Source: Hydrogenophaga sp. | GTDB lineage: Bacteria > Pseudomonadota > Gammaproteobacteria > Burkholderiales > Burkholderiaceae_C | NCBI RefSeq assembly: GCF_030158645.1 | Contig: NZ_JAOASO010000043.1 | Coordinates: 1 to 64,000 of the forward strand | Direction: 5' to 3' | Length of the DNA: 64,000 nucleotides | In this document: positions 4,024 through 64,000 of the stretch, piece after piece | Position numbering within the stretch: the stretch's first letter is position 1 | Layout of the letters: each line of letters begins with the position of its first letter | Translations under genes and position numbers: made by a program | The notes under the pieces: generated by a model | Database searches by the model: none | Told to the model about the DNA's origin: nothing | Seen by the model: the letters and a program-made list of their open reading frames with translations, nothing else

Positions 4024-4632
4024 TCAAGGCTGTCCCAGGCCGAGGAAAGTGGCCAGGGCCTGGGTGTCGTTGGCGCCGGCCTGCATCACCACCTGGTTGC
4101 TTCGCTGGTGGCGCGCCACGATGTAAGGCACCGAGGCGGCGCCCAGGCGCTCCAGCAGCTCGGTGTTGGTCTTGATGGCGGCCAGCACGTCGGGCGCGAT
4201 GTCGGCCGAGGCCGAGGTGCCGCCGCTGCCGGCCAGCAGCGAAGTCTCGTGCGCGGCCATGGCCTGCACCGGGTTGGTCGCGGTCATGATCGCCGCGCCC
4301 TGGGGTGCGCTCTTGGCGTTCATGATGGCCACCGGCAACCAGACGAACTTGACGCTGGTGTGCAACGGCAGGGACGCCTCCCACAGGCGCGCGCAGTGCG
4401 GGCATTGCGGGTCGAACAACACATACACGGCGTTGGCGCTGAGGATCTTGCCGGCGGCGAAACCCTTGCCTTGCGCAGCGAGCACGTCCATGGCCTGTGC
4501 CGCGTCGATCGGGGTTGTGCTGGCGGTCGCCGCGGGCGCACCGGCGGCCGGGGCGCTGGCCCCGTCTTTGGAGCAGGCGGACAGCAGGGCCAGCGATGCG
4601 AGCACGGGCAGGGCAAGGTGTCGAATGTTCAT
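4024..4632 (-). CDS. thioredoxin-fold lipoprotein, DsbG/DsbC-like
   Basis: The 202-residue protein has a lipobox (LLSAC) and a thioredoxin-fold core with the motif 'FDPQCPHC', a CPHC redox active site. The downstream 'ASVPYIVARH' carries the cis-proline region expected of DsbA/C/G folds. It is most likely a membrane-anchored periplasmic thiol-disulfide oxidoreductase or isomerase. It lacks the separate N-terminal dimerisation domain seen in full DsbG; an Ala/Pro-rich linker takes its place. The substrate is unknown. Confidence 0.8.
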   Translation of the reverse strand: MNIRHLALPVLASLALLSACSKDGASAPAAGAPAATASTTPIDAAQAMDVLAAQGKGFAAGKILSANAVYVLFDPQCPHCARLWEASLPLHTSVKFVWLPVAIMNAKSAPQGAAIMTATNPVQAMAAHETSLLAGSGGTSASADIAPDVLAAIKTNTELLERLGAASVPYIVARHQRSNQVVMQAGANDTQALATFLGLGQP

Positions 4633-61519: not shown

Positions 61520-64000
61520 TCAGGCGGGGAGCAGCGCCGGGGTGGCACGCACCAGGCGCTTGAGTTCGGGCACACACGATCCGCAGTTGGTGCCGCAGTG
61601 CAGGCTGGTTTGCAGTGTGGCCAGGCGCGCGTCCTCGCTGCCCTCGCAGGTGGCCAGCCGGTCGGTGATGGCCAGGTCGGTCACGTTGAAGCAGGTGCAC
61701 ACCTGCCGGCCCTTGGCCTCGACGGCCACCGGCGGTTGGGCGCCGGGCATGAGCAAGCGGCGGCCGTAGGCGTCGGCGGGCAGTTCGTCTTGCAGCAGCG
61801 GCTTGAGCCAGGCCTCGGCGCGCGTGTCGCCGGCCAGCACAAAGCCGTCGAGCTGCGTGACCTCACCCACACGCACCAGCCGTGCGGCGCGGTGCTGGCC
61901 CAGGCGTTTGTCGGTGTAGCGCAAGGCATCCGCCGTGTTCAGGCCGAGCAGGGCTTCGATCTGCTCGGTCAGGGCCGGGTCGGGCGCTTCGGGGGCGGCG
62001 GCGCGGAACAAGACACCGGTGCGTTCCCGACCGAACGGCACGCAAGACGCAAAAGGGAACTTCGCCATGAGTTCGCGCAAGCCCCGCTGTGCGCTCAGTG
62101 CACCGGTCTCGGGCAGCCAGGCCATGGCCAGCAGCGTCCAGGGCAGCTCGGCCTTGAGCACTTTCACTGCGGCGTGTTTGAGTTCGGGCTGTTTTGAGGA
62201 CGGGCAGTATGCCGAGGTGGTGAGTGCGTTCACACCCGCGAGCACCTCGCCGGTGCTGCTCATGCCGCTCAGGTACTCGGCGCCCCAGTGCATGGCGATG
62301 AAGGCCTGCGACAGGCCGATGTCGGTCGAGCCCTGCAGTGGCACCACGATGGCGCCGCGCTTGCTGGTCACGTGCACCAGATCGCCTTCTTTCAGGCCAC
62401 GGCGCACCATGTCCTGCGGGTTGAGTTGCACGGACGGCTCGGCCACATGACCGAACAGGCGGCCCAGCGTGCCGGTGCGCGTCATGCCGTGCCACTGGTC
62501 GCGCAGGCGGCCGGTGGTGAGCGAGAACGGGTAGCGCGATTCGCGCGGTTCGGCCAACGGGACGAAGGGCAGGGCAGCGAAGCGGGCTTTGCCATCGACG
62601 GTGGGGAAGACGCCGTTTTCGTAGAGGCGCTGTTTTCCCTGCGTCTCGCCGGATTTGATAGGCCATTGTTGCGGGCCTTCGTTCTCCAGTTTTTCGTAGG
62701 AGAGACCGGTGATGTCCAGGTCGCGTCCTCTTGTTGACTCGCGGTGTTCGTTCCAGATGTCTTCGGGGGTTTGGTAGGGGAAGAGGGTCTTCTCCGGCTG
62801 CACCGCAAATGGGGTCAGAGCCGAATTTCGTTGGAGGTTGTTGGCGGCATCGGGCGCTGCTGTCCTGAATTCGGATCTGACCCCATTTGCTCTCTCCAGC
62901 CGCCTCGCAAAGTCCACGACGATGCGCCAGTCGTGCCGTGCCTCACCCGGTGCGGGCACGGCCGGGCGGACGCGGCTGATGCGGCGTTCGCTGTTGGTCA
63001 CGGTGCCGTCTTTCTCGCCCCAGGTGGTGGCGGGCAGCAGCAGGTCGGCGAAGTCGCAGGTGGCGGCGGTGGCGTAGGCCTCCTGCACCACGACGAACTC
63101 GGCGCGCTGCAGCGCGCGGCGCACGGTGGCCTGGTCGGGCATGGACTGGGCCGGGTTGGTGCAGGCGATCCACAGCGCCTTGACCTCGCCGTCGGCCGCC
63201 GCCTCGAACATCTCCACCGCGCTCTTGCCCGGCTTCTCGGGCACGCTCGGCACGCCCCACAGCGCGGCCACTTCCGCGCGGTGCTGCGGGTTGGCCAGGT
63301 CGCGGTGGGCGCTCAACAGGTTGGCCAGGCCGCCGACCTCGCGCCCGCCCATGGCGTTGGGCTGACCGGTGAGGCTGAAGGGGCCGGCGCCGGGTTTTCC
63401 GATCTGGCCGGTGGCCAGGTGCAGGTTGATCAGGGTGGCGTTTTTCGCGGTGCCGCTGCTGCTCTGGTTCAGGCCCTGGCAGTACAGGCTGAGCGTGGCG
63501 GCCGACTGTGCGAACCATTGGGCAGCGGTGTAGAGGTCTTCCTTTTTCAAGCCACACGCTTGCGCCACGCGTTCGGGCGTGTGCTCCCGGACCAGGGCCT
63601 TGAGCGCGTCAAACCCGGTGGTGTGCGCGGCAATGAACGCGGTATCCAACCAGCCTTCCCACAACATGACGTGCAGCAAGCCGTGGAACAGCATCACGTC
63701 GCTGCCGGGTTGCAGCGGCAGGAACAGGTCGGCGAAACCGGCGGTGTCGGTGCGGCGCGGGTCGGCCACGATCACCTTCATGGCCGGGTTGGCCTGCTTC
63801 GCTGCTTCGATGCGGCGGAACAGCACCGGGTGCGCGAAGGCCGCGTTGCTGCCGACGATGAACAGGCACTGCGCGTGGTTCACGTCGTCATAGCAGGCGG
63901 GCGGCGCATCGGCGCCCAGCGTGAGCTTGTAGCCGGCCACCGCGCTGCTCATGCACAGGCGCGAGTTGGTGTCGACGTTGTTGGTGCCGATCAGGCCCTT
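61520..64000 (-). CDS. nasA: assimilatory nitrate reductase catalytic subunit (5' end beyond window)
   Basis: At least 827 residues are visible. The frame is open to the right edge ('KGLIGTNNVDTNSRLCMSSAVAGY' is a molybdopterin oxidoreductase block), so the N-terminal [4Fe-4S] cysteines are missing from view. Molybdopterin-binding blocks and 'LTTGRLRDQWHGMTRTG' follow, then a C-terminal BFD-like [2Fe-2S] domain with 'VCTCFNV' and 'HCGTNCGSC'. It reduces nitrate to nitrite in the cytosol. An in-frame palindromic insertion (62805-62890) lies between two conserved blocks. Confidence 0.93.
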   Translation of the reverse strand, partial: KGLIGTNNVDTNSRLCMSSAVAGYKLTLGADAPPACYDDVNHAQCLFIVGSNAAFAHPVLFRRIEAAKQANPAMKVIVADPRRTDTAGFADLFLPLQPGSDVMLFHGLLHVMLWEGWLDTAFIAAHTTGFDALKALVREHTPERVAQACGLKKEDLYTAAQWFAQSAATLSLYCQGLNQSSSGTAKNATLINLHLATGQIGKPGAGPFSLTGQPNAMGGREVGGLANLLSAHRDLANPQHRAEVAALWGVPSVPEKPGKSAVEMFEAAADGEVKALWIACTNPAQSMPDQATVRRALQRAEFVVVQEAYATAATCDFADLLLPATTWGEKDGTVTNSERRISRVRPAVPAPGEARHDWRIVVDFARRLERANGVRSEFRTAAPDAANNLQRNSALTPFAVQPEKTLFPYQTPEDIWNEHRESTRGRDLDITGLSYEKLENEGPQQWPIKSGETQGKQRLYENGVFPTVDGKARFAALPFVPLAEPRESRYPFSLTTGRLRDQWHGMTRTGTLGRLFGHVAEPSVQLNPQDMVRRGLKEGDLVHVTSKRGAIVVPLQGSTDIGLSQAFIAMHWGAEYLSGMSSTGEVLAGVNALTTSAYCPSSKQPELKHAAVKVLKAELPWTLLAMAWLPETGALSAQRGLRELMAKFPFASCVPFGRERTGVLFRAAAPEAPDPALTEQIEALLGLNTADALRYTDKRLGQHRAARLVRVGEVTQLDGFVLAGDTRAEAWLKPLLQDELPADAYGRRLLMPGAQPPVAVEAKGRQVCTCFNVTDLAITDRLATCEGSEDARLATLQTSLHCGTNCGSCVPELKRLVRATPALLPA
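62805..62890. repeat. palindromic element inserted in frame in nasA
   Basis: The arms (62805-62827 and 62868-62890) are reverse complements at 22 of 23 positions, starting GCAAATGGGGTCAGA, with a 40-nt interior. The element encodes ANGVRSEFRTAAPDAANNLQ and on, which fits no part of NasA. The arm resembles REP-type repeats associated with tyrosine transposases in proteobacteria (from memory). The frame is maintained on both sides. Confidence 0.8.

Follow-up and report, generated by a model that had tools for sequence, protein, structure and literature searches.

The nasA gene at the end of the window, the 64,000-nucleotide stretch of Hydrogenophaga sp. DNA analysed here, contains a palindrome whose reality and exact placement are confirmed. 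Taken as a whole, it is most probably a miniature element of the GGGGTCAGA class, non-autonomous and inserted in frame into the interdomain linker of the NasA protein, which joins the molybdopterin domain to the dinucleotide-binding domain. The element fits the TIRYT/RAYT repeat class, resides in a linker that appears permissive and is presumably translated. Its parts are listed in Table 1.

Table 1. Position of the palindromic element and of its host gene in the window.
Feature	Position	Strand	Basis
nasA, assimilatory nitrate reductase	61520..64000, runs past window end at 64000	-	Pfam domains, open frame
Whole inserted miniature element	62805..62890	-	Covariance-model match; empty site in relatives
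5' arm, nasA sense strand (GCAAATGGGGTCAGATCCGAATT)	62868..62890	-	Inverted-repeat search; covarying pairs
3' arm, nasA sense strand (AATTCGGCTCTGACCCCATTTGC)	62805..62827	-	Inverted-repeat search; covarying pairs
Variable 40-nt interior	62828..62867	-	Between arms

The two arms, 23 nt each and 40 nt apart, are complementary at 22 of 23 positions (96%), as a preliminary description made from the sequence had reported, and form the only inverted repeat detected between 62500 and 63200. On the nasA sense strand the element reads GCAAAT-GGGGTCAGATCCGAATT-(40 nt)-AATTCGGCTCTGACCCC-ATTTGC. Folded as single-stranded DNA, the palindrome has a minimum free energy of −30.2 kcal/mol, against −13.4 ± 2.6 kcal/mol for 200 dinucleotide shuffles (z = −6.4). 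No target duplication or clean junction could be defined for it.

The minus-strand frame is uninterrupted across the palindrome, bearing out the earlier observation, and contains 826 codons inside the window. The product has the Pfam domains Molybdopterin, Molydop_binding and Fer2_BFD, with the BFD-like domain at the C-terminus; its matches to NasC/NasA-type models are below the model cut-offs. The closest nasA genes are those of Hydrogenophaga in the named collection. Measured between fixed anchors, the linker has a length of 132 nt in most relatives from the genus and of 213 nt in the window, a net gain of 81 nt with the frame intact. A gain of about 30 residues had been proposed; relative to the NasA of these relatives the gain stands, and the anchor alignment puts its size at 27 codons. 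The encoded peptide contains ..ANGVRSEF..RNSALTPFA.., and nothing in the solved nitrate reductase corresponds to the extra residues: the phmmer alignment to it breaks at 352/390. The AF2 model supports no structural claim, because its mean pLDDT of 67.7 and pTM of 0.55 are too weak; the insert (residues 357-389) has a pLDDT below 50, consistent with a flexible loop but no proof of it. The tolerated surface loop suggested earlier is thus plausible and weakly supported.

Repeats of the same kind are multicopy in another genus of the Comamonadaceae, g131. Thirteen inverted pairs of about 75 nt each, found in 2.0 Mb of one contig of a g131 genome (G153), typically read GGGGTCAGATC[AC]CAATTCA..CGAAATTG[TG]GCTCTGACCCC and share their asymmetric arms (AGATC/AGAGC) with the nasA element. 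None is clearly within a conserved gene body and some small or N-terminally extended open reading frames overlap them; as this judgement is based on open reading frames only, we call these copies apparently non-genic. A covariance model trained on the 13 copies alone matches the window copy with 76.3 bits and an E-value of 2.4e-16 (a rough value, from a short calibration). Up to E = 1, its matches in 88 loci (0.7 Mb) are ten nasA genes, three xdhB genes and one purL gene, and nothing else. Across 26 copies, 97% of the arm cells are paired and nine pairs show compensatory change, outer pairs included; the covariation score was reached by none of 500 shuffles. The length of the linker varies across the NasA family, as would be expected if the palindrome had arisen by chance in an ordinary variable linker and had never been mobile. 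We give practically no credence to this explanation: the fold is far more stable than that of shuffled sequences, the covariance-model search, with its match to the repeat family of another genus, refutes it, and the same element is present in xdhB and purL. The family match and the empty sites in relatives support the original proposal of a mobile-type palindrome lying in frame between conserved blocks of nasA.

Both arms contain GGGGTCAG, which corresponds to GGGGWSAS, given as the consensus motif of TIRYT repeats in PMC3733652 and PMC6006769. The GTAG tetranucleotide is absent beside the palindrome in every copy aligned; the element is therefore not a classical REP, and identity with GTAG REPs or REPINs was rejected. 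The label "REP-like" needs correcting in this respect: the element fits the terminal-inverted-repeat class (TIRYT, GGGGWSAS). In G968, a more distant genome from another family of the same taxonomic class, the related arm GGGGTCAGAGTCGAATT forms 13 pairs (at least 13 GGGGTCAGAGTCGAATTTCC inverted pairs, at loci L170-L175). A separate genome, G016 (2.2 Mb), contains 31 matches to GGGGTCAGA-type repeats, mostly TTCCAATT, far above its relatives. Searching Rfam with the element gave no match, and nothing relevant was found in the literature on the core sequence or the encoded peptide. Plasmid and phage blastn searches for a source, as well as plasmid tblastn searches with the encoded peptide, gave chance-level matches only. 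Three viral contigs contain a single arm that has no partner, and these were dismissed as chance matches.

In the window's own genome (an assembly 92.8% complete, surveyed by pattern searches), the exact arm core does not occur a second time, an absence that the preliminary description had named as a refutation; the family to which the arms belong is, however, multicopy in g131. A looser core, GGGGTCAGA..AATT, is present on two other contigs. The genome contains one copy of the subtype found in nasA and one Y1_Tnp gene (contig C125), the tyrosine transposase that the preliminary description had proposed looking for. The C125 protein (233 amino acids) has its Y1_Tnp domain at residues 13-121, with HFH and YLDLNP signatures, a class 2 type with a C-terminal extension; it scores 77.2 bits against NF047646, the NCBIfam model for REP-associated tyrosine transposases, just below the cut-off of 80. 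The gene is flanked by inverted GGGGTCAGATTCCAATT, with the same core GGGGTCAGA as the nasA element but with TTCCAATT in place of TCCGAATT. Each of the 11 genomes checked has a Y1_Tnp gene with GGGGTCAGA-type repeats (at most one mismatch) on one side or both; G022 has a further Y1_Tnp copy, which lacks them. Presumably, a transposase of the TIRYT type moves, or once moved, such elements. That the C125 enzyme moved the nasA element is something we infer from the shared core of the flanking repeats, whose inner arm differs; this difference, and the lack of another copy of the subtype in the genome, count against the preferred explanation of an inserted miniature element.

The element is not restricted to nasA. 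A strict pair pattern (gap 20-50) is present in four of 401 genomes of the family, in nasA in two and in xdhB in two; xdhB (TIGR02965) carries the element in all three g131 genomes, and in G246 it is also found in purL (NF003672). In xdhB, the element occupies a loop of which the solved homologue 1jro has a shorter version and paralogues have none. In G318, a fragmentary metagenome-assembled genome (loci L146, L178 and L180), xdhB falls into several separate frames close to the element, either as a pseudogene or through an assembly error. The purL gene of G246 (L190, minus strand of 1-2676) encodes, apart from the GVRSEL..NSALTQ element, a further repeat peptide, VRPEPVEGQAEASTSSARTEL, which is also in frame and whose repeat is of the CTTCGAC type.

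All 14 genic copies have the same orientation and the same frame: the 5' arm encodes GV[RG][SP]E[FL] and the 3' arm [NI]SALT. They also share an arm variant, GAATT/AATTC, while the 13 G153 copies mostly have CAATT/AATTG. Read in the shared frame, the G153 arms would encode N-W/C/F-A-L-T and the genic arms N-S-A-L-T; judged by these translations, the genic copies contain a compensated base-pair swap that clears Trp, Cys or Phe from the frame and keeps the hairpin. Because the nasA copies are not mutually independent, there may be as few as three independent genic cases (nasA, xdhB and purL), and for three such cases against the 13 G153 copies the difference in arm variant has a Fisher P of 0.002. 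The GAATT/AATTC variant could predate entry into genes, since the multicopy pairs of G968 have a CGAATT-type arm. One orientation and one frame for all genic copies is not a strong prediction of random insertion followed by survival, and this is a further point against the preferred explanation. That this transposase-linked class includes a subtype adapted to genes, which enters or persists in coding sequence in one frame and orientation, has arms compensated to keep hairpin and harmless hydrophilic peptide alike, and moves between homologous genes across species, is a tentative and rather doubtful idea.

The window's genome is not alone in having this element, which is found in nine further nasA genes; of the earlier statement that the family offers no equivalent of the extra residues, the comparison with the solved nitrate reductase stands. 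Seven of the carriers (L006, L007, L008, L066, L067, L070 and L075) belong to the same genus or its neighbours; the others are a Curvibacter (L081) and a metagenome-assembled genome of the Burkholderiales (L089). Their arms are nearly identical and their interiors variable. In L075 (Hydrogenophaga intermedia MER 62, 4072-4121), the hairpin is reduced to a minimum, the two arms and four interior bases, and the frame is nevertheless kept. The distribution of the element among nasA genes is patchy: on a nasA tree calculated with the linker omitted, the ten carriers need nine changes (gains and losses together), eight of them forced by well-supported (starred) branches.

The data fit two histories. 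In the first, to which we give about even chances, homologous exchange of short tracts among nasA genes carried one old insertion sideways, or let empty alleles often displace an inherited one. All ten nasA copies agree in orientation, in frame and in having the GAATT/AATTC variant, and the similarity of the elements departs from the gene tree (for example, 0.96 for L005 and L067, with 0.66 at third positions). Within the arms, 10 of 12 third positions are invariant, compared with 31% in amino-acid-conserved codons of nasA (P about 3e-4, assuming independence of sites), silent-site conservation beyond that of the rest of the gene. Any tract that the carriers have in common around the element is at most about 60 nt long, which speaks against exchange, although this recombination-tract test is weak because third positions are near saturation at such divergence. 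The second history, repeated independent insertion of the same subtype in many lineages with the linker or its DNA as a preferred or permissive target, is a serious possibility that falls short of being probable. It would account for the number of changes on the tree and for the flanks, which in sliding windows (of low power) track each carrier's own clade beyond about 60 nt. The uniformity of the ten copies argues against it, as do the derived residues of PE[KNR] type that six carriers have a short way downstream and that empty alleles lack; no other copy of the subtype that could have been a source is present in the carriers checked.

Both the silent-site conservation and the compensatory changes in the arms, outer pairs included, would also be expected if a hairpin in the nasA gene or its message were kept by selection for a function. 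We regard such selection as unlikely: most relatives have no element, and covariation would also arise among mobile copies, whose movement requires the hairpin, or from template-switch correction of palindromes.

Evidence for repeated use of the site comes from the linker itself. Twenty-two of 99 NasA sequences have at least 12 extra residues there, while at any other site of the aligned 810-residue body (ragged ends excluded) at most three sequences have such long insertions. At least three palindrome families in total occupy the linker, that is, at least two besides the present one. The repeat CTTCGACAAGCTCAG..CTGAGCCTGTCGAAG is present at this position in L012 and, judged by the encoded peptide, probably L009, from two same-genus genomes. 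A CCCTCACCCCAGCCCTCTCCC-type palindrome lies in frame in Polaromonas and Ramlibacter (L096, L100, L121 and L129) and, by peptide, also in L095, L130 and L138; it encodes PSPQPSPASGRG or LPLGEGGGEG and requires five changes on the nasA tree. In G153, too, this linker of nasA contains an element, a shorter one, and the insertion is clearly independent, since its core GGGGTCAGAACCCAATTAA is identical to the repeats beside that genome's own transposase gene. The G153 case and the further families favour repeated insertion. The element, described before as seemingly rare, is carried by a patchy set of relatives in a linker used repeatedly by several palindrome families.

Under the preferred explanation of an inserted miniature element, two terminal inverted repeats enclosing some 40 nt of variable sequence would allow a long single-strand hairpin to form, and Y1/HuH transposases of the TIRYT type, flanked by repeats of this core, would move or once have moved such elements. 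One copy would have entered the NasA linker in an orientation and frame giving a stop-free, hydrophilic peptide, so that NasA gained its 27 residues and presumably kept working; we infer that the loop is neutral. In the genic copies, the base-pair swap in the arms removes Trp, Cys or Phe from the frame with the palindrome retained. The element may have reached separate nasA lineages through the exchange of short tracts, or it may have inserted repeatedly.

The closest known systems are the TIR repeats of TIRtrons, or TIRYT transposases (PMC3733652; classified as subclass 2.1, RAYT group 1, in PMC6006769). Shared features are the GGGGTCAG core, the inverted pair, related repeats beside a Y1 transposase gene and a moderate copy number in some genomes. 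The present element differs in lying within genes (nasA, xdhB and purL), where it is read in frame and has an arm variant compatible with coding; the accessible parts of those papers describe no in-gene TIR copies. REPINs, or REP doublets, and their RAYTs (PMC3116915, PMC2817692) likewise combine inverted repeats about 70 nt apart, a hairpin and a tyrosine transposase in the genome, but are described as almost wholly extragenic, and the present element has no GTAG tag. Intragenic GTAG and CGTC REPs, also palindromes within genes, have been reported, with the suggestion that they may be neutral where a linker or loop is flexible (PMC3733652, in its accessible part); they belong to another repeat class, and neither recurrent use of a linker nor a compensated coding variant is described for them there. 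Rickettsia palindromic elements (as described in PMC10969869) resemble the present element in being in-frame palindromes with a recurrent peptide in unrelated protein genes, here those for NasA, XdhB and PurL. They differ in length (about 150 nt, against about 75-86 nt here) and lineage; the present element is also tied to a transposase-flanking repeat class, most of whose G153 copies look non-genic.

As far as the sources reached show, four things are new: this repeat class in coding sequence, a common frame in three unrelated proteins, compensated, coding-compatible arms, and a single linker that is used again and again. Rickettsia provides the best-known cases of in-frame palindromes that code for protein; the present class comes with a candidate transposase encoded by the genomes that carry it, with natural alleles, occupied or empty, in close species, with three host proteins and with a visible coding-compatible change in its arms. 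Together these make it testable whether such insertions are tolerated junk, selected loops or gene-adapted elements, and the system offers a natural test of how far genes tolerate in-frame mobile DNA. A gene-adapted subtype, if true, would amount to a protein-coding palindrome system like that of Rickettsia, but with a candidate enzyme. One protein linker can gather unrelated mobile palindromes, which aids annotation and marks permissive sites in enzymes.
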